Source: a virus. From it: a stretch of 26,169 nucleotides of DNA. The position numbers and the translations under genes are program-made. Location: positions 1 to 26,169 of IMG/VR virus record IMGVR_UViG_3300007640_000195; one strand, given 5' to 3'. Of the stretch, positions 3,202 to 14,356 are shown piece by piece; the first letter of the stretch is position 1, and each line of letters opens with the position of its first letter. The notes below the pieces were generated by a model. It was given only the letters and a program-made list of their open reading frames with translations. It ran no database searches and was not told the origin of the DNA.

Positions 3202-4275
3202 TTACCAAGCTTCGTAGCCGTGTCCAAGTTCTTTGACCTTTTTACACCAAGGCTTGCGTTCTTGGTTAGGTCCGAACATTAGCGGTGCTTCTTCTGGAAA
3301 TTCCGTTTCATTCTTAGCGTAAAGCCAGGATTCAGCGTCATCCAAACCCCAGGTCCAGATTTCTTTAACTCCTTCTGCTTTTGCTGCTCGGTAAATTCTC
3401 CCAGCTAGTTCTGCTTGCTTTTGGAGTTTTTCTGCCTGAGTCATACCTGTCAAACCTGCAATGGAAATATCTAGTTCTGTAATTAGAACTTCTACTCCTG
3501 TACTTTTCAGAGCTTTAAATGCATCGCGGAGCGCGCTTTCTTTTACGTCTTCTTCAGCACGGATGTGAGCTTGGCATCCAATAAAATCAATCGGATAGCC
3601 GTTTTCTTTAAGCCACTTGATAGCTTCTACGTAGTTATTAACTTTTACTTGGTAGCGTTGGTAATCCTCGATGTTGTAGTCGTTGATACCAACCTTAGCT
3701 TGTGGGTCCATCGTCTTTGCTTGACGAAGGTTGATTCCGATCTCTTCCCAAGTGATGTCTTCAACACCTGGGAAAGTCTTTAGAGCCTTGCCTTTGGGTT
3801 CTAGAGGCTCATTCCAGACTTGAATGTAGTCAAACCTACCACGGAAGTGACCGACTACTTTAGAGATGTGCTTTGTGTTTGCTTTGATACGAGCAGTCCG
3901 ATCAGTAATCGGATAGCCACGTTTGACAGGGAAGAATGACGGTTTAGCCCACAACAGCGTGTGAAGCATAGTCCGTTTTCCATTGGCCTCAGCAAACTTC
4001 AGCATTTGCTCTGCTTTGGAAAAGTCGTAGTCTTCGTAGCCACTTTTGGTTTTATCCAAAAGGTTCATCCACTTCATTGCGTTACCGTCTAGGTAACCGT
4101 CGAACTTAGTCTTCAGTAGTGACCTACGAGCTTCACTATTCTGAAGGGATTCTACATGGAGCATTGCCCCAAGAAAAACCTGTTTCTCTTTCTTTGGAGT
4201 GGACTCACGCTTTTTCCATAAGCGCATTAGAAGATCAAAGTATGTAAGAGGGTTTAACGCTCTGATAAGTGACAT
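3202..4275 (-). CDS. GH10 family endo-beta-1,4-xylanase-like glycoside hydrolase
   Basis: This is a complete (beta/alpha)8 GH10 catalytic domain of 357 aa. Motifs appear in the right order: 'NAMKW' (65-69), 'HTLLW' (105-109), acid/base Glu156 in 'VWNEP', His237 in 'CQAHI', nucleophile Glu267 in 'ITELDI', and 'WTWGLDDAESW' (307-317). GH10 enzymes are retaining hydrolases that cut beta-1,4-xylan and some related glycans. No signal peptide or binding module is seen; residues 1-30 are a basic leader of unknown role. Every catalytic landmark is kept, so the enzyme should be active. A late-type octamer precedes it, which favours a virion-associated or lysis-time role over early metabolism. The true substrate may be a host capsule rather than plant xylan. 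Confidence 0.9.
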   Translation of the reverse strand: MSLIRALNPLTYFDLLMRLWKKRESTPKKEKQVFLGAMLHVESLQNSEARRSLLKTKFDGYLDGNAMKWMNLLDKTKSGYEDYDFSKAEQMLKFAEANGKRTMLHTLLWAKPSFFPVKRGYPITDRTARIKANTKHISKVVGHFRGRFDYIQVWNEPLEPKGKALKTFPGVEDITWEEIGINLRQAKTMDPQAKVGINDYNIEDYQRYQVKVNNYVEAIKWLKENGYPIDFIGCQAHIRAEEDVKESALRDAFKALKSTGVEVLITELDISIAGLTGMTQAEKLQKQAELAGRIYRAAKAEGVKEIWTWGLDDAESWLYAKNETEFPEEAPLMFGPNQERKPWCKKVKELGHGYEAW

Positions 4276-4278
4276 ACT

Positions 4279-4286
4279 TTATTTAG
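4279..4286 (-). promoter_or_regulatory. late-promoter-like octamer before GH10
   Basis: CTAAATAA on the minus strand, then AGT and the ATG at 4275. This resembles the CTAAATA-type late motif reported for T4-like cyanophages and the T4 consensus TATAAATA. Confidence 0.55.
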
Positions 4287-4287
4287 A

Positions 4288-4602
4288 CTAGCAGTTCCAT
4301 TTACGCAGACTCTTATTTATTCTTGAATCGGGGTCACGCGCCGTTTTCGCGCTAGTTAATCTCTTCTTCATACCCTTCATTCTAGAGCAGAAGGACTTTC
4401 TTCTTTTAGCTGCCTTTGAACCTTTCTTCAACTTGGAAGGCTTTGTAGTAACGGCGGTCTTGAGCTTGGAGCCAGGGTTCGCTCGTCTATAAGCATCTAC
4501 ACCTTTCTTGGTAAGTCCACCTTCACGGGACTTGTGAACGCCCATTTTCATCTTGGGCATTACGCCTTTACGTTCGGTAATAAGTGTGTAGAGATTATCC
4601 AT
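4288..4602 (-). CDS. DUF6321-like basic protein (104 aa)
   Basis: This very Lys/Arg-rich protein contains 'REGGLTKKGVDAYRRANPG', 'KLKTAVTTKPSKLKKGSKA', 'RRKSFCSRMKGMKKR' and 'ARDPDSRINKSLRKWNC'. I recall this set as DUF6321, a family of unknown function in phages and large viruses; the assignment is from memory. The N-terminal MDNLYTLITE is nearly identical to that of 2291-2554. 'RMKGMKKR' also echoes 'RMAGMKKR' in 6301-6564. It is probably a nucleic-acid-binding virion or packaging-associated protein, by inference. It lies directly upstream of GH10. Confidence 0.7.
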   Translation of the reverse strand: MDNLYTLITERKGVMPKMKMGVHKSREGGLTKKGVDAYRRANPGSKLKTAVTTKPSKLKKGSKAAKRRKSFCSRMKGMKKRLTSAKTARDPDSRINKSLRKWNC

Positions 4603-4647
4603 AAAAGTTTCTCTTTTTGTCGTTGTATAAAATAATGAGTAAGCCGA

Positions 4648-4941
4648 TTAGGAGGAAGGAGGCTGCGATGAACCCCGGAACCAACTCTCGATCCTGTTGT
4701 AGAACGCTACCAACATCGCTGCTACCGCCATCCTCACTGACCTGAACATCAGAGAGGCTATGATCCCCGTAATAATCAGAGTCTCCACCAGACCAGACAG
4801 AGCGTTCACCGCTTCCGGCAAAGCTTCTACTAGCGTCTGAGTGGTGGTGGTCTCCTGCTTTCCCACGTCACTTCCTCCAGAACTAAACGGGATCAGTGAG
4901 CATGAAGCAAGCAGCAATACGGGTATTAATAAAAATCTCAT
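4648..4941 (-). CDS. small lipoprotein with a second membrane segment (97 aa)
   Basis: Residues 1-14 form a lipoprotein signal (MRFLLIPVLLLASC) with lipobox L-A-S-C, so Cys14 should be lipidated. A Ser/Thr-rich linker follows, then hydrophobic stretches at about 50-82 and a short Pro/Ser tail. One lipid anchor plus one transmembrane segment is the layout of unimolecular spanins, though this protein is short for one. A lysis accessory or superinfection-exclusion protein is also possible. AAGGAG is placed just before the ATG. The start overlaps the stop of the upstream gene by 4 bp (ATGA), so the two are translationally coupled. Confidence 0.65.
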   Translation of the reverse strand: MRFLLIPVLLLASCSLIPFSSGGSDVGKQETTTTQTLVEALPEAVNALSGLVETLIITGIIASLMFRSVRMAVAAMLVAFYNRIESWFRGSSQPPSS

Positions 4942-7520: not shown

Positions 7521-10500
7521 ATGAGCGAGATAGACCGCAGAAAGAACTGGAACCCCTTTAGACAAACCGATGACGGTAACGATATGGGTGACAGTCCTCT
7601 CAGGATGTTCGATGAGAACAATCCTGACATAGGTCTATTTAACGCTATTGATCAAGAGATCATTGCTCTAGGCGGTTCTAAAATGACCGTCTATAAGTAC
7701 GAAAGAGAAGAGACGGCAAGCAACGATCTATACGGTGAAGATCGTAAGAAAAAGATTTACTCAAAGAAGTATGTCATAGGTCACTACGACCCAACAATGA
7801 TCCAAGAGAACCTAACTGAGTTTGGTATTCAGTTAGAAAACGATCAGTTCTTTACATTCAACAAAGATTACATCGAAACCGTACTTGGCAGACCTCTTCA
7901 ACCTGGGGACATTATCCACCCCGTATTTCAAAACTTCTTATACGAAGTTTACGAAGTACAAGAAGACAGATTTGATAACTACGGAGTTTATCATATTGTA
8001 GCGTCAGCCAAACTCCTAAGAGAATCTCAATCCTTACTCAGGGAAATCGAGGGATCTATAGGAGGTGGTCCAGAAGTTCCAAAGCCAGTTAGTACAGTTC
8101 AGCTTCCCACTCTGTTCTTTGATAGCACAGATGTGGATACATTAAGAGCTTTAGCAGCAGGAAGTCTTTCTACAGAGTTTGGTAGAAGTGCTGCTGGAGC
8201 AGAAGCAGATTTTGTTAACAACAGGTATCCTGAGGCTAATGAGGAAGATGCTCCAACGGCTGGAGGAACATGGAGAAACTACGGGGACAGACTTTTCAAC
8301 GCAGCTTTTGCAGCGAAGTTTACCGACAATGAAACGAGTGCGGCAGCATTCAGCGGTTATTGCAATACTGTAGTTTCTCGATTGGTTGATTACTCAGCGT
8401 GGGGTCCAACAGAGATACAAGACCCAAGCTTGGCTGGGCAAGGAGTGTACACATTCCATAATCAGGGTTTAGCTGCTTCTCATATCCTCACAGGATTTGC
8501 TGTCTACTTAGATTTGTTCTATGATCAAATATCAGAGCCTTTGCGAAGCAATATGGTTTCCGCAATGGAAAGACAGCTTTCTGTATTTAACGATACTATA
8601 GTAAGTGGTACAGAAGACCTTCCCGGATCTAGAGAATGGATCAAGGGCATAACAAGTAATATTAACCAAGTATTTTGGAATTCCGTTCTTTGTGCTGGTT
8701 TAGTTCTACACAAAATAAACAATAGTGCTAGTGCATTAGAGTTTGTAGAAATGGCTAGAGCGAATACTTCTAGGTGTTTTGAACTTAGAAATGGAAAGGG
8801 GTCTGGATCAGATCCAGAAAACCTTTTCTATATGTCTTATTCTCTTCACGCTTTATTGCAAAGTGTTAAGGCTTTGCAACAAAACGGGTATGAAGATTTT
8901 ACCTCTGGTTACTGGCTACAAAACATATACAAGATGTATATGTATTTGTATACTCCCAATTTTTACAACATAGTCGGGTTTAGTGATCAGGACGGAGTAG
9001 TCGGAAGAGGACCACAACATATACTGTCTTACTTACAGCAGCTAACTGGAGACGGGGCTATAGGAACCATCCGAGATTCTTTGTGGGCAAACCCTAACGT
9101 TAGCCAACAAGGAAACCCCAACACTGGTATATTGTGCTTAGACTTTTTATGGAAAGATCCAGATATACCTACATCTAGCATTTCACTCCCCGATATAGAA
9201 AACTTCACGGACATGGGAGTGGGAGTTTATAAGGAAAATTGGACTTCGGGAGCTACGCAGACAGCATTCAAATCCAGTGATCCAGCAGGGCAATATGCTT
9301 GGAGCTTGTGGAAAAGCGGAAACTATCTTTTGGATAGACCTGTCATTTCTCACGAAAAGGCGGACCAAGGAAATTTTGTATACCTGCCTAGCGGAATTAG
9401 ATTTATTGACGGAGGACTATATGAAAGACCTAAGAGAACCTCCGCCAACAATGCAATAACATTCCTTCCTCCTGCTCCTTTGAAATTTAAATACACCGAT
9501 GCACAGATATCTGGTGTTTGGGATTTATCAGCCTTGTCTGCGTTTGAAGGTATCGAAGAGCAGCAACAGGCTGGGTGTTGGAATAACTTTCTGTCTGAAG
9601 AAGAAGTAGGTGTTGACAGAAACGAACTAATAGAAGGTAATGTAAAAGGGAATTTGATTCCCATGACAAAAGATTCAAGTGGCAACGTATTCGTTGCAGG
9701 AGAACATACTCGATGGTATGCGTCTTCAATTCCTTTGGAGGCTGGGGGCAGATATCGAAACGATCTACAGTCAGTTTATAGAACTAACTTAAAACTTCCG
9801 AATGATGTTTTATGCATCGTTGACCATATAGACTTGGGTACAAAACAATTAGCACCAAGATCCTATTTCAGACTTAATAGCACTCCATCAGATAGTTACG
9901 AAATTTCTGCTGGGGGAGGATTTAGTGCGATATTCCACCATGATGATGGATATGACCACACGTTGTTTTATGCAGGACCAACAACAGCGAGTGCCTTACA
10001 AATCGGAAGAAGCGTTTCAGATATAACAAAAGTTCCGGGAACAGCCCCAAAGAGCATTGACAAGGCTGGGGGATGGGACTCGCTGGGCTCCTATAGCTGG
10101 TACGCTAACTATCAGTTTGATTTCTTAACGGGTATGAACCAAATGGTTTATATCGCTGTACCGTATGACAAAACCAGCACGGTATCAGATATGACACAAA
10201 CGGATAGTTATGTACAGTTTACAGTAACTACTTCTGATGGAACGTCTTATGCTGTTAAGATAGCTTCTAAGAACGACCCGGAAATTAGAGAAATAGTTTT
10301 CTCAAGCCCTGACGTATATTACACTGTTGATTTACCTGAGTTACCTGCTGTTGAGGAGGGAGCCTTACAAGGTCCTAATGGGGGTCTCTTCAGAGGTCCG
10401 AACGGTGGTCTAATGCTTGGTCCTGACACTGTTGATTTACCTGCTGTTGAGGAGGGAGCCTTACAAGGTCCTAATGGGGGTCTCTTCAGAGGTCCGAACG

Positions 10501-10529
10501 GTGGTCTAATGCTTGGTTCTAACGGCTAA
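7521..10529 (+). CDS. gp14-like neck domain fused to heparinase II/III-like polysaccharide lyase
   Basis: The 1002-aa protein has two recognisable parts. Residues about 35-185 match T4 neck protein gp14 ('LYGEDRKKK', 'TEFGIQLENDQFF', 'LQPGDIIHP', 'FLYEVYEVQEDRFDNYGVYH'); T4 gp14 has 256 aa in total. Residues about 205-560 are helical, as in an alpha/alpha toroid. Residues about 575-935 are beta-rich and contain 'SHEKADQGNFVYL' (His611, Asp615) and 'FIDGGLY' (Asp630). This is the H-x-x-x-D-x-G-x-F plus D-x-G-Y signature of heparinase II/III-type lyases, which cleave uronic-acid polysaccharides by beta-elimination. The C-terminus has two 32-aa Gly/Pro/Asn repeats. The gene precedes the terminase, the T4 position of gp14. 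The fusion would place a depolymerase on the neck. Confidence 0.8.
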   Translation: MSEIDRRKNWNPFRQTDDGNDMGDSPLRMFDENNPDIGLFNAIDQEIIALGGSKMTVYKYEREETASNDLYGEDRKKKIYSKKYVIGHYDPTMIQENLTEFGIQLENDQFFTFNKDYIETVLGRPLQPGDIIHPVFQNFLYEVYEVQEDRFDNYGVYHIVASAKLLRESQSLLREIEGSIGGGPEVPKPVSTVQLPTLFFDSTDVDTLRALAAGSLSTEFGRSAAGAEADFVNNRYPEANEEDAPTAGGTWRNYGDRLFNAAFAAKFTDNETSAAAFSGYCNTVVSRLVDYSAWGPTEIQDPSLAGQGVYTFHNQGLAASHILTGFAVYLDLFYDQISEPLRSNMVSAMERQLSVFNDTIVSGTEDLPGSREWIKGITSNINQVFWNSVLCAGLVLHKINNSASALEFVEMARANTSRCFELRNGKGSGSDPENLFYMSYSLHALLQSVKALQQNGYEDFTSGYWLQNIYKMYMYLYTPNFYNIVGFSDQDGVVGRGPQHILSYLQQLTGDGAIGTIRDSLWANPNVSQQGNPNTGILCLDFLWKDPDIPTSSISLPDIENFTDMGVGVYKENWTSGATQTAFKSSDPAGQYAWSLWKSGNYLLDRPVISHEKADQGNFVYLPSGIRFIDGGLYERPKRTSANNAITFLPPAPLKFKYTDAQISGVWDLSALSAFEGIEEQQQAGCWNNFLSEEEVGVDRNELIEGNVKGNLIPMTKDSSGNVFVAGEHTRWYASSIPLEAGGRYRNDLQSVYRTNLKLPNDVLCIVDHIDLGTKQLAPRSYFRLNSTPSDSYEISAGGGFSAIFHHDDGYDHTLFYAGPTTASALQIGRSVSDITKVPGTAPKSIDKAGGWDSLGSYSWYANYQFDFLTGMNQMVYIAVPYDKTSTVSDMTQTDSYVQFTVTTSDGTSYAVKIASKNDPEIREIVFSSPDVYYTVDLPELPAVEEGALQGPNGGLFRGPNGGLMLGPDTVDLPAVEEGALQGPNGGLFRGPNGGLMLGSNG
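10341..10517 (+). repeat. 96-bp tandem repeat at the lyase C-terminus
   Basis: Copy 1 spans 10341-10436. Copy 2 starts at 10437 and stays identical to about 10517. Each encodes 32 aa with internal GPNGGL doublets. Near-identical DNA implies recent duplication. The role may be a linker, an assembly tag or a phase-variable tail end. Confidence 0.95.
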
Positions 10530-11195
10530 AGGAAGCATATGGCTATAATCTTTTAAGAATTTATTTCTTTCTATATGCCAATCTTCCCTATTTCCTACTT
10601 CTCCCATAGAGTAGTGAAGTAACCGCAAAGCGGATACATAAACAGGAATGCCGTTTTTTATTGCAGACATACAGTAGCGGAGATCGTAGAAGTTCCATCC
10701 GTTTATTTCTCCCTCTGTAATGGATTCAAAGATTCTCTTCCAAACGCTCACCTTTGCGTACATGAATAGACCATCTATTGCAGCCACATAAGAGGGTTTA
10801 CCATAAAAAGTACAGAAGCAATCTTCCCAATCTTTACCATGAAAAACACATCCGGCTGTTTCTTGTGGAAACTTCATAGAGTTCCACCATATAGCGTCTT
10901 CTCTCAGCCTCTTTGTCCCTGCAACTCCGTGTAGCTCCTCAGATTCGTATGCCTTCTTCATACACTTCATGAAGTACTTTTTGCCCGATATAATCTCCAC
11001 GTCATCGTGGCAAAGTATGAGAACATCGTCATCCTTAGCCCCTGATTCTACACAGTTTTTCAACCCTCTTTTGTGTGCAGAGAAGATGTCCTTTTCTCCT
11101 ACAACTTGGTCAACTGAAACCTTTAGATCGCTAAGTTGTCTTATTATTTCGGTGTTTTCGGAGGTCTTTGAGGGAATTGAAGCATATATACGCAT
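10506..11195 (-). CDS. GT-A glycosyltransferase (family 2-like)
   Basis: The 229-aa protein has a Rossmann-like start (MRIYASIP). 'VLILCHDDVEI' follows (Asp64-Asp65, the metal/nucleotide-sugar site of GT-A folds), then 'AAIDGLFMYAKVSVW' (Asp141) and 'LLHYSMGE' near the end. This resembles the GT2-like PF13712 group. Such phage enzymes transfer a sugar to phage DNA, virion proteins or host surface glycans; the acceptor cannot be told. It lies on the opposite strand between the neck-lyase and terminase genes. Its stop overlaps the lyase 3' end by 24 bp and its start is 3 bp from the terminase start. It looks like an inserted accessory gene. Confidence 0.8.
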   Translation of the reverse strand: MRIYASIPSKTSENTEIIRQLSDLKVSVDQVVGEKDIFSAHKRGLKNCVESGAKDDDVLILCHDDVEIISGKKYFMKCMKKAYESEELHGVAGTKRLREDAIWWNSMKFPQETAGCVFHGKDWEDCFCTFYGKPSYVAAIDGLFMYAKVSVWKRIFESITEGEINGWNFYDLRYCMSAIKNGIPVYVSALRLLHYSMGEVGNREDWHIERNKFLKDYSHMLPLAVRTKH

Positions 11196-11198
11196 GAG

Positions 11199-12671
11199 AT
11201 GACAAATAAAGATAAGATTCTTGAAGAGCTAAAAAAGTGCAGAGAAGATCCAATCTATTTCATTACTAGGTATGTAAAAATAGATCACCCTGTTAAAGGC
11301 AGAATACCTTTTAAACTTTTTAGATTTCAGCAGAGAATTGTAAACGAGGTTCACAACCACAGATTCAACATCGTAAGAAAGTTTCGTCAGGCTGGGGTTA
11401 CAACGATCATGGCAGCGTACAGTTTGCACATGATTATCTTTGAAAGACACCGAAACATCCTTTGTGTATCAATCGGTGATAGAGAAGCCAAAGCATTCTT
11501 GAATCGTGTCGTGAAGATGTATGATGAACTACCCGTGTGGCTAAAACCAAAGGTTACAGAAAGGAACAAAAGCACACTAGAACTATCGACAGGCTCTAAG
11601 ATCAAATCTCAACCAGCGGGTGCTGGTAGATCAGAATCAGCCTCTATCATCGTTGTAGACGAGGCGGCATTCGTAAAAGACTTTGAGGAGTTTTGGCAAG
11701 CAGTGTTCCCAACGGTATCAACGGGCGGTAAAGCCTTCCTCATCTCTACCGTAAACGGCACAGCTAACCTGTACTATCAGCTTTACCAGAATGCCATACA
11801 AGGTAAAAACGAGTTCAATGCAATTGATATTCGATGGCAAGAGCATCCTGACTATACTGAAGAGTGGGCTAAGTCTATGAAAAGCTCTATGCCTGAGAGG
11901 TCATGGCTGCAAGAGTATGAGTGTGAGTTCTTGGGAACAGGTGACACTTTCGTAGACGGAAACACCCTAAGAAAACTATCCCACAACATCTCCGAAGAAT
12001 TCTCAGAGAAGTTCACCAGAGCTTACAGAGTGTGGAAAGATCCAGAGCCCTATCACCAGTACGCATTGTCCGTAGATCCGGCATACGGTAGAGGAAGAGA
12101 TAACACGGCTTTTCATATCATCGATTTGTATTCTGGTGAGCAGGTAGCCGAGTTTTGCTCTAACACTATTTCAGTAAAGAAGTTAGCAAAGGTAATATAC
12201 GAAGAAGGAAATAGATATAACCTAGCCTACGTTATCATCGAGAGGAATGCTTTAGGCATTGTCTTGTTTGAGGAGCTATTCCACGAACTTGCCTACGAAA
12301 ACATCTATATGGATGATAAAGGGCAGTTCGGAATCCAAACTACTAAAATTGAAAAGGAAAAAGCCCTTGCTCACATGGAGGATTCTCTACGCAGATCCCT
12401 AATCAAAGTAAACTCAAACAGATTAGTAGACGAATTAGGAACCTTTGTCGTAAAAGAAAATAAGATTGAAGCTGAAAAAGGCTATAATGATGACTTGGTG
12501 ATGAGCTTGGCACTCGGATGTTATGCTATAAAAGATATTTTAGAAAACTCTCCGGTCACTCTAGATAAGAAAGAAGCCGAGCAGGAAAGTCTGGCTGAAA
12601 AGATATTTAGGTCGGAGTACCAGGACAAAACCGACCGAATGAAGGAATATCGTAAATGGGTTCTGAGCTAA
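11199..12671 (+). CDS. terminase large subunit (gp17-like)
   Basis: The DNA-packaging motor ATPase and nuclease, 490 aa. The ATPase part has a deviating Walker A 'RKFRQAGVTT' (60-69), in which the usual Gly-Lys-Thr lysine is Val and basic residues sit at the front. Walker B is 'IIVVDEAAF' (150-158), followed by a coupling motif 'STVNGT'. The RNase H-like nuclease has 'SVDPAYGRGRDNTAFHI' (about 290-306), 'YVIIERNALG' and 'GYNDDLVMSLALG', giving the three acidic metal ligands. T4 gp17 has 610 aa, so this is a shorter version with the same domains. It overlaps the portal gene by 16 bp. No strong Shine-Dalgarno precedes the ATG; CATATATA lies about 8 nt upstream. Confidence 0.93.
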   Translation: MTNKDKILEELKKCREDPIYFITRYVKIDHPVKGRIPFKLFRFQQRIVNEVHNHRFNIVRKFRQAGVTTIMAAYSLHMIIFERHRNILCVSIGDREAKAFLNRVVKMYDELPVWLKPKVTERNKSTLELSTGSKIKSQPAGAGRSESASIIVVDEAAFVKDFEEFWQAVFPTVSTGGKAFLISTVNGTANLYYQLYQNAIQGKNEFNAIDIRWQEHPDYTEEWAKSMKSSMPERSWLQEYECEFLGTGDTFVDGNTLRKLSHNISEEFSEKFTRAYRVWKDPEPYHQYALSVDPAYGRGRDNTAFHIIDLYSGEQVAEFCSNTISVKKLAKVIYEEGNRYNLAYVIIERNALGIVLFEELFHELAYENIYMDDKGQFGIQTTKIEKEKALAHMEDSLRRSLIKVNSNRLVDELGTFVVKENKIEAEKGYNDDLVMSLALGCYAIKDILENSPVTLDKKEAEQESLAEKIFRSEYQDKTDRMKEYRKWVLS

Positions 12672-14356
12672 ACGACAAAGACGAACTGCTTGAAGAGAAC
12701 TATACAGAGTTCCCAGGCGATCAAAACTACAACAATCGATCTGGTTTTGTAGGTGCTTTTGCTGCATTCTTCAAGAAGTTTCCAAAAATAGGGCAAAAGA
12801 AGAAAGGTCCTGGCAGACCTCCAAAGCTCCCTGAAGACCCGGAAGGAGATACCCAGTCAGTAGCGGGTGGAGACGTTTTTAACGCTGTAAATGACGCTGT
12901 AGGCGGCTACGGTCTTTCTGTGTCTCGATCTTCATACCGTTTGCCAGAACTAGAGCAAACTAGAAAGAGAAGATACAGGCAGTTTGAGAAGATGGATATG
13001 TTTCCTGAAATCAGTACTGCCTTTGATATTTATGCCGACGATGCCACCCAAGAAACCCTCAAAGGTGAGTCGTTTGAAATCAAAACTGAATCAGAGCTAG
13101 TAAAACGTGACATAGAAAATCTAATCGAGGTTACTGACCTTGATACCCTAATTTGGGATATTGTCAGAAACGTCGTTAAGTACGGTGATTGCTTCATAGA
13201 GAATATCGTAGATCTAAATAACAAAGATCTAGGAATCAGGAGACTAAAGGTTCTAAACCCAAACTACATTTATCGAGTAGAAAATAACTTTGGATACCTG
13301 CAAAAGTTCCTTCAAGAGATTCCTACAAAGGGAGGTCAGCAAGCAGAGTCAATTCCTTCTCTCCAAAAGGAAAGAGTTGTAGAACTTGCCAAGGACCAGA
13401 TAGTACACTTTAGACGCAGAACTTCAGACGTAAACTTTTATCCTTACGGCAAAAGTATTGCAGCACCCGCAATTAGAGCATGGGAAAACCTCCGATATAT
13501 GGAAGATGCCATGCTCATTTATCGTTTAGAGAGAGCCCCAGAAAGAAGAGTATTTTACATTGATGTTGGCAACTTGCCTACCACAAAGGTTGATAACTTC
13601 TTAGAAAAGGTAAAGGCAAGATTCAAGAAGCAACAAACCTATGACGCAAACACAGGAACAATCAACGAGCGTCACAATCCTCTAGCAGTAAATGAGGACT
13701 TCTTTGTCCCTATCAAGGGCGGACAAGGAACCAGAATCGATACTCTTCGTGGTGCTGAGAACCTAGGTGAAGTTGACGATGTTCGTTACTTCCGTGATAA
13801 GGTTCTAGCCGCTCTTAAAATACCAAAGGACTACATCGTAGAAAAGGATAAGTCTCCAGAAAGAAAGGCAAACCTTTCTCAGCTAGACGTTAAGTTCTCA
13901 AGAGCCGTCCATAGACTTCAGAAGGACATAGAGAAGGGTATCAATACTATTATAACCAGACACCTGCTACTTAGAGGCTACGATGAAATTAGCATCTCAA
14001 AAGTAAAGGTATCTCTTTGCTCACCTTCAGATATGCATGAAAAGCGTAAGCTGGAGTTGGATGAGTTTAAGCTGAGAATTGTACAAGGAATGAAAGGTCT
14101 ACAAATGTTCGATGACCAGTTCCTATACGAAAACTATTTCGGACTAACAAAGGCAGAAGTTGGCGATATGCGAAACAGAATGAAAGATCAAGCCCAACGA
14201 GATTCCGAAATCATGCAAGCATCCCAACCTCCAATGGATGCAGGAATGGGAGGGGGAATGGCTCCTGGGGCAGCACCCGAGGGTCAAGAGCTACAAGGTC
14301 AAGCTCCAGAAGAGCAAGCTCCAGGAGGAGAACCTGAACAACAACAACCTGCGTAA
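12656..14356 (+). CDS. portal protein (gp20-like)
   Basis: The 566-aa protein forms the dodecameric DNA gate at the head vertex. Recognisable T4-type portal segments include 'LEQTRKRRYRQFEKMDMFPE' then 'ISTAFDIYADDATQE', 'NVVKYGDCFIENI', 'SIAAPAIRAWENLRYMEDAM' then 'LIYRLERAPERRVFYIDVGN', and 'EDFFVPIKGG'. T4 gp20 has 524 aa. The C-terminal 60 residues are Gly/Met/Pro/Gln-rich and probably disordered. The start lies inside the last codons of the terminase gene, with AAGGAA about 8 nt upstream, so terminase and portal are translationally linked. Confidence 0.93.
   Translation: MGSELNDKDELLEENYTEFPGDQNYNNRSGFVGAFAAFFKKFPKIGQKKKGPGRPPKLPEDPEGDTQSVAGGDVFNAVNDAVGGYGLSVSRSSYRLPELEQTRKRRYRQFEKMDMFPEISTAFDIYADDATQETLKGESFEIKTESELVKRDIENLIEVTDLDTLIWDIVRNVVKYGDCFIENIVDLNNKDLGIRRLKVLNPNYIYRVENNFGYLQKFLQEIPTKGGQQAESIPSLQKERVVELAKDQIVHFRRRTSDVNFYPYGKSIAAPAIRAWENLRYMEDAMLIYRLERAPERRVFYIDVGNLPTTKVDNFLEKVKARFKKQQTYDANTGTINERHNPLAVNEDFFVPIKGGQGTRIDTLRGAENLGEVDDVRYFRDKVLAALKIPKDYIVEKDKSPERKANLSQLDVKFSRAVHRLQKDIEKGINTIITRHLLLRGYDEISISKVKVSLCSPSDMHEKRKLELDEFKLRIVQGMKGLQMFDDQFLYENYFGLTKAEVGDMRNRMKDQAQRDSEIMQASQPPMDAGMGGGMAPGAAPEGQELQGQAPEEQAPGGEPEQQQPA

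Follow-up and report, generated by a model that had tools for sequence, protein, structure and literature searches.

An uncultured bacterial virus that may carry a polysaccharide-cleaving enzyme on its neck is represented by a DNA stretch of 26,169 nucleotides, positions 1 to 26,169 of IMG/VR record IMGVR_UViG_3300007640_000195 (the window). A single uninterrupted open reading frame (ORF) at positions 7521-10529, beginning with ATG and running over 1002 codons on the plus strand, joins a domain taken as the T4 neck protein gp14 (head closure, Hc2) to a predicted polysaccharide-lyase-fold enzyme. The reading that best fits the evidence, held with a probability of roughly 60%, is that the product would be a working head-closure protein with a C-terminal uronic-acid polysaccharide lyase, displayed at the neck of the particle and degrading acidic polysaccharide. 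Phage enzymes of this kind are usually sought on tail fibres and spikes, and if the closure ring can carry them, neck proteins and proteins annotated as hypothetical may hide further depolymerases. The original prediction made from this DNA had proposed the same arrangement and was right in outline; our results support it in part, as the enzyme has other affinities than proposed, neck enzymes have precedents, and the pattern extends to related viruses.

The fusion is present in independent assemblies. A contig from another metagenome (L001, 3300006802) is 99.82% identical to the window: an alignment of 15,018 bp contains 15 mismatches and a single gap, and none of the mismatches falls in the fusion ORF. 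A contig from a third metagenome (L002, 3300007539) is 98.4% identical at the DNA level over window positions 7600-10424 (2,829 bp, 40 mismatches, 4 gap openings); its fusion protein is 97% identical to that of the window, and the same junction is open from residue 28 onward. A further contig (L004) covers the C-terminal end of the fusion alone. As L001 and L002 carry the same open junction, the fusion is not an artefact of a single assembly, and an assembly error joining two genes is ruled out; the proposed 1002-codon frame is thus genuine, and the suggested search for the same fusion in other metagenomic phages succeeded. Within the frame, the gp14 domain spans residues 1-172 (7521..8036), followed by a linker of residues 173-190 (8037..8090), the enzyme of residues 191-936 (8091..10328) and a C-terminal tail (10329..10526), all on the plus strand. 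The linker DNA (69 nucleotides, residues 173-195) is unchanged between the window and L002. An internal start was considered and rejected: no in-frame ATG occurs between residues 93 and 345, and the first in-frame GTG (residue 205, nucleotide 8133) lies 65 nucleotides beyond a Shine-Dalgarno-like string, AGGAGGTGG, found in frame inside the linker at 8060-8068. It could be speculated that AGGAGGTGG is a relic ribosome-binding site of a once-separate lyase gene.

The N-terminal domain by itself matched no family model, and its identity comes from relatives, modelling and gene order. The homologue in a related contig, L003 (189 residues), matches phrog_679 ("head closure Hc2") at 1.9e-7 and PF11649 at 0.023, the latter under the cut-off, and phrog_679 is matched by two of 14 relatives. 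BLASTP against T4 gp14 gave an E-value of 3e-5 at 23% identity. An AlphaFold2 model of the domain had a predicted local distance difference test (pLDDT) score of 65, with the fold matched over residues ~23-171; in Foldseek, the best five hits of this model were T4 neck structures (E 2.0e-6 to 2.2e-4), as the original prediction of a gp14-like domain and its proposed structural check would have it. VIA comparison gave Z-scores of 9.6-10.5 to T4 chains, among them chain M, which we take to be gp14 from its residue range, and 10.6 to the neck of phage 812, with many other stopper proteins at 8-10. In addition, the neighbourhood of gp14 in related contigs follows T4: gp23 and gp13 lie upstream in L013, gp13 upstream and gp15 with gp18 downstream in L018 and L027, and gp15 with gp18 downstream in L011. 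Because homologue match, model fold and the relatives' gene order agree, residues ~23-177 are taken as a T4 gp14 (Hc2) domain. A weak similarity of residues 67-133 (7719-7919) to YopN of phage phi3T (E 0.009-0.02) was also seen among solved structures and may reflect a shared fold.

The enzyme part likewise matched no family in Pfam, PHROGs (best 0.094) or NCBIfam, and since family scans gave nothing useful, its identity is drawn from relatives and solved structures. With phmmer, residues 371-652 matched human dermatan-sulfate epimerase 1 (DSE; 6hzn) at 1.8e-10, and a three-row enzyme profile reached 4.7e-16 with 6hzn, the next hit being a PL35 chondroitinase at 0.012. The window enzyme is 50-53% identical to a separate lyase encoded in L003, which in turn matches PF16332 (DUF4962) at 0.0016 with 17.5 bits against a cut-off of 28.7, so under the curated threshold. 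A DUF4962 protein of Ilyobacter is a weak match to the lyase (23.8% identity, E 1e-3); pattern scans of genome contigs for bacterial relatives returned 107 and 105 matches, none of which was confirmed, the patterns being short. In the phage collection the L003 lyase found no match, and the full window protein matched through its gp14 part only. Foldseek of the enzyme model, used as support only, placed PL35, DSE and PL15 structures at ranks 1-7, with TM-scores of 0.19-0.25 by query length. Together, the 6hzn profile match and the lyase-rich Foldseek list support residues ~190-936 as a polysaccharide-lyase-fold enzyme of the toroid plus beta-domain lyase/epimerase superfamily, as had been proposed. 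The proposed affinity to PL12, PL15, PL17 or PL21 was not supported: by sequence comparison the enzyme is nearer to DSE and PL35, and no Pfam or NCBIfam profile scored above its cut-off. A comparison of folds, which had been suggested with those families, did return PL15 among the top seven; yet PL35 came first, and the model was poor and the TM-scores low.

The residues that would be needed for catalysis can be followed in part. His611 aligns with DSE His450, Tyr437 with Tyr261 and Tyr634 with Tyr473; the offset of 22 between chain and protein numbering in 6hzn, which we infer, fits all seven residues named in the part of the DSE paper available (PMC8006597). For PL35 lyases, the accessible sections of PMC12088678 give Asn192 (with Asn191), Tyr246 and His401 as acting in catalysis, and His403, Asp405, Asp421 and His457 as a manganese site. 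By their spacing, Asn382 or Asn380, Tyr437, His611, Asp615 and Asp630 of the window protein would fit this PL35 set, Asp630 falling one residue off the position of DSE Glu470. Of the lyase signature originally named, His611, Asp615 and Asp630 are thus meaningful, but the catalytic tyrosines Tyr437 and Tyr634 had been overlooked.

A mechanism can be outlined with T4 as a guide. The closure ring of T4 consists of six gp14 subunits whose core extends to residue 177; residues 178-256 make up a flexible arm that later contacts gp15, according to the portion of a preprint consulted (PMC12270204). The VIA match pairs this T4 residue 177 with residue 171 of the window protein, and the enzyme starts at about residue 190; it would therefore sit where the arm of T4 leaves the core, at the base of that flexible 79-residue stretch. 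As in T4, six gp14-lyase subunits would form a ring sealing the filled head and providing the docking site for the tail, and up to six lyases would then encircle the neck beneath the head, though only if the ring is made entirely of fused subunits. The placement of the enzyme at the neck, as first proposed, is the natural inference from the gp14 domain and presupposes incorporation into the virion. There the lyases would beta-eliminate an acidic polysaccharide, which could be mucilage from the environment or the capsule or slime of the host; His611 would serve as the base and Tyr437 as the acid, and cleavage may help the particle move through or leave such a matrix. This raises the question of whether a head-end enzyme would serve travel through mucilage or act after tail binding or contraction. 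If the reading is correct, an essential connector tolerates a large C-terminal cargo, and gp14 would be a natural six-fold display scaffold.

The L003 contig shows the two parts as separate genes: gp14 ends at 1249 and the gene of a 749-residue lyase starts at 1253, 3 nucleotides apart, and L003, like the window, has a PF13712 glycosyltransferase and gp17 further downstream. The fusion may thus have joined adjacent gp14 and lyase genes that are still separate in L003, and we infer a direction from separate to fused, the fusion being the derived state because short gp14 genes are many. In other contigs, different genes follow gp14. A GH10 glycosidase gene lies directly after it in L028 (2284-3384; PF00331 at 1.8e-36) and in L029 and L030 (725-1825 in both), and the gp14 of these three contigs groups with that of L003 in the tree described below (100/100). 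A gene of 345 residues occupies the same place in L023 (4462-5499) and L099 (1670-2707), and for the one in L023 the scans gave no convincing family. Since a lyase (L003), GH10 enzymes (L028-L030) and the 345-residue gene (L023/L024) all follow gp14, this position appears to be a site where such genes can be swapped. The free-standing lyase of L003, which has no obvious signal peptide by eye and stands apart from gp14, also bears on the idea that gp14 serves as a carrier only, with cleavage of the linker, either as particles assemble or once the cell has lysed, setting the lyase free at the burst. A GH10 gene and small genes resembling membrane proteins nearby would suit such a release, but the linker does not differ between the window and L002, a cleavage motif was not identified in it, and there would be no point in covalent fusions arising repeatedly if every one of them were cleaved; we regard this alternative as distinctly unlikely.

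Fusions to gp14 do recur in related viruses. The survey covered 187 contigs with gp14 relatives from the virus collection, collected as best matches to three seeds, the fused gp14 of the window, the fused gp14 of L107 and the gp14 of L089 (237 residues), so that its counts are not frequencies and refer to the matches listed. Lengths were compared for 181 contigs, leaving out L022, L031, L115, L127 and L198 (open 3' end) and L151. The gp14 ORF measures 160-215 residues in 165 of the 181, which makes the short form the usual one; it is longer in 16 and exceeds 300 residues in 12. The lyase is joined to gp14 in two contigs, and in a search of 21 contigs with the lyase profile it was present only in L001. 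An alpha/beta-hydrolase with a PepX_C domain extends gp14 to 813 residues in L106 and L107; in L107, PF00326 (1e-8), AXE1 (2.8e-8) and PepX_C (1e-6) all score above their cut-offs, and hydrolases of this kind are found on gp14 in five contigs altogether (L106, L107, L070, L071 and L114). Other large C-terminal domains occur in L044 (600 residues), in L164 (760 residues) and in a group of 338-351 residues, and none of these extra domains gave a convincing family in the scans; an impression by eye of a glycosidase-like barrel in L044 was borne out by no analysis.

The relationships among these proteins were examined in a tree of 101 distinct gp14 domains from 165 rows; 19 rows lacking the FTFN motif and 3 of fewer than 150 residues had been removed. 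The lyase fusions group with the unfused gp14 of L041/L045 (99/95), L044 with the unfused L086/L087 (100/99) and the 350-residue group with the unfused L057 (99/80), and L164 and L106 are long branches of unsure placement. Because different fusions group with different unfused gp14, several independent fusions are likely. Two side observations concern the extended proteins: in L126 (4354-5370 and 5361-5774) the gp14 extension differs and an overlapping separate ORF of 137 residues matches the end of the L120 extension (55% over 60 residues), so that the extension of the 350-residue group is split in L126 relative to L120, and in L164 (3300024302_000034) the upstream neighbours (4060-4887 and 3531-3956) look unlike gp13 and gp23 by eye.

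Whether a fused gp14 would build the ring by itself can be judged from gene copies. The case for mounting at the neck is strongest for L107, because the hydrolase fusion is the sole gp14 found in this 45-kb contig and lies inside a canonical block of gp23 (60% identical to that of L013), gp13 (64%), the gp14 fusion, gp15 (45%) and gp18 (49%). An alternative is that a plain gp14 encoded elsewhere builds most of the ring, with the fused copy in few positions or used otherwise. Such pairs exist: L070 (1978-5014), L071 (3406-5068) and L114 (4544-6786) carry a plain gp14 of 192 residues whose stop codon overlaps the start of a second gp14. This second copy is fused to a relative of the L107 hydrolase; it stops early at 363 residues in L071 and runs off the contig in L114. 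The window virus genome is also incomplete, and gp13 and gp15 were not identified within the 41 kb known of it, which leaves room for a plain gp14 elsewhere. Against this, the one gp14 in the 41-kb contig of the window virus is the fused one; of the 21 contigs searched, some of which span 45-84 kb, 19 have one gp14 each and two have two; and in the 45 kb of L107 the fused copy, which occupies the canonical neck locus, is the only one. We regard a mixed or divided role as rather unlikely for the window virus.

The tandem genes and the incomplete neck gene set just described weigh against a working gp14 that displays an active lyase, and so do several results on the two domains. For the gp14 domain, hhalign gave a weak result (3.6%) when the 14-row alignment was compared with the T4 gp14 sequence by itself. 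The AlphaFold2 model of the enzyme part, built from 3 sequences, was poor (pLDDT 36), showing helices and then strands. The substitutions that separate the window from L002 count on both sides: 0 nonsynonymous against 4 synonymous in the gp14 part (residues 28-172), and 18 against 11 in the enzyme part (196-935), a nonsynonymous to synonymous rate ratio (dN/dS) of 0.45, speak for the preferred reading, but the ratio of the enzyme part is not low and is based on few changes. In the presumed active site, the catalytic His205 of DSE aligns with Ile381, flanked by Asn380 and Asn382, and Lys613 takes the place that spacing assigns to the PL35 metal ligand His403, so that the HxHxD metal site intact in L003 reads HxKxD in the window.

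Both substitutions would suit an adhesin, a lyase fold that has lost catalysis and only binds an acidic glycan at its neck position; carbohydrate modules of lactococcal neck passage structures, described in the available part of PMC6669499, offer a parallel. However, Tyr437, Tyr634, His611 and Asn380/Asn382 are common to the window and L003 enzymes, which are 50-53% identical, and in PL35 the neutralizer is an asparagine, not a histidine, as far as the accessible text of PMC12088678 goes; we consider a pure binding role unlikely. The absence of DSE His205, essential in that enzyme, speaks against a C5-epimerase that would convert the uronic acids of a polymer without cutting it, as does the first rank of a PL35 lyase in the Foldseek list of the poor model. 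Although DSE is the closest solved sequence and its two catalytic tyrosines have aligned counterparts in the window enzyme, an epimerase appears highly improbable, and a lyase displayed at the neck remains the preferred reading.

Extensions are also found on gp15, the tail-terminator or sheath-stabilizer protein. C-terminal additions occur in L072 (4615-7314), L118 (2168-4763), L119 (3286-5913), L132 (1521-4298) and L053/L058 (L053 4831-9271), and N-terminal additions in L108 (675-2669), L197, L206, L233 (2193-4358) and others; the gp15 parts of six extended proteins are 34-46% identical to known gp15. Pfam recognised BD-FAE in L233 (2.9e-7) and TIG in L053 (3.4e-6), both above cut-off; in L119, L132 and L108 hydrolase or fn3 signals stayed below the threshold, and five other additions tested gave no Pfam match. 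When proteins were clustered at 90% identity, among the matches listed 11 of 83 gp14 clusters exceeded 215 residues (9 of 83 exceeded 300) and 10 of 74 gp15 clusters exceeded 340, whereas no cluster was found above 400 residues for gp13 (0/66) or above 900 for gp18 (0/78) and gp23 (0/67). The gp14 figure is biased by the choice of seeds; what is informative is how neighbouring genes on the same contigs differ.

That related viruses attach other large domains at the same spot suggests the virus neck as a mounting point for enzymes. A general form of this idea, to which we give about even odds, is that the gp14 and gp15 rings would act as a mounting rack to which varied enzymes and large domains were attached independently, with some gp14 genes duplicated for mixed rings; its cargo would comprise the lyase, the esterase-type hydrolase and other domains on gp14, and hydrolase-like and large domains on gp15. 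Since the lyase has its own gene in L003 and both gp14 and gp15 are repeatedly extended among related viruses, the window fusion, judged from these relatives, belongs to a wider pattern instead of being an isolated oddity.

Other genes of the window place the virus among T4 relatives. On the minus strand, a glycosyltransferase-like gene (10506..11195; PF13712, 1.6e-11) overlaps the 3' end of the fusion ORF and lies between it and the terminase large subunit gp17 (11199..12671, plus strand; PF03237, 5.4e-14; phrog_2, 6.2e-50), which is followed by the portal gp20 (12656..14356, plus strand; PF07230, 1.8e-81). The claim that the T4 order is kept stands in that gp14 lies ahead of gp17, but the glycosyltransferase gene intervenes and no gp15 or gp16 is found there. 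Further along, a T4-type baseplate protein (PF12322) and gp53 (PF11246) are encoded, which indicates a T4-related virus with a contractile tail. A GH10 glycosidase gene lies upstream of the fusion on the minus strand (3202..4275; PF00331, 5.5e-54). The C-terminal tail of the fusion contains two direct repeats of the GALQGPNGGLFRGPNGGLMLG unit, 91 nucleotides each (10337-10427 and 10433-10523), 97% identical and encoding a Gly/Pro/Asn-rich end; L002 has a single copy of the unit.

Enzymes located at the phage neck are already known, and the fusion to a head-closure protein would be the new element. Phage phi29 has a neck appendage, gp12, with teichoic-acid activity. That no example had been described, as the original prediction stated, holds for an enzyme fused to a head-closure or tail-terminator protein (gp14 or gp15), of which none was found in the open-licence literature searched, but does not hold for neck enzymes as separate proteins. 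The excerpt available of a 2017 review likens Dpo7 to a pre-neck appendage protein (99%) and names P22 gp4 as the only virion lysin located at the neck (PMC5380687). These proteins, as far as that excerpt describes them, likewise bring enzyme activity to the neck, but as a separate appendage or as the connector's own activity, whereas in the window virus the lyase is joined to the head-closure ring protein. The neck passage structures of lactococcal phages of the 936 group bear carbohydrate modules, and together with evolved MTP/Dit they similarly represent modules grafted on structural proteins; according to the part of PMC6669499 consulted, however, these modules are mainly for binding and sit on collar, tail-tube and baseplate proteins, while the window module is a putative enzyme. 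The enzyme shares the toroid plus beta-domain superfamily with DSE and the PL35 GAGases, with the tyrosines and the histidine aligned and, for PL35, the asparagine placed by spacing; unlike them it is viral, joined to a neck protein, lacks DSE His205, scores below family cut-offs and is known from its sequence. Finally, the N-terminal domain shares with T4 gp14 (PF11649, phrog_679) its fold, the gene neighbours seen in relatives and, presumably, the hexameric closure ring, but where T4 gp14 ends in a flexible arm of 79 residues, the gp14 core of the window protein leads into an enzyme of ~750 residues.

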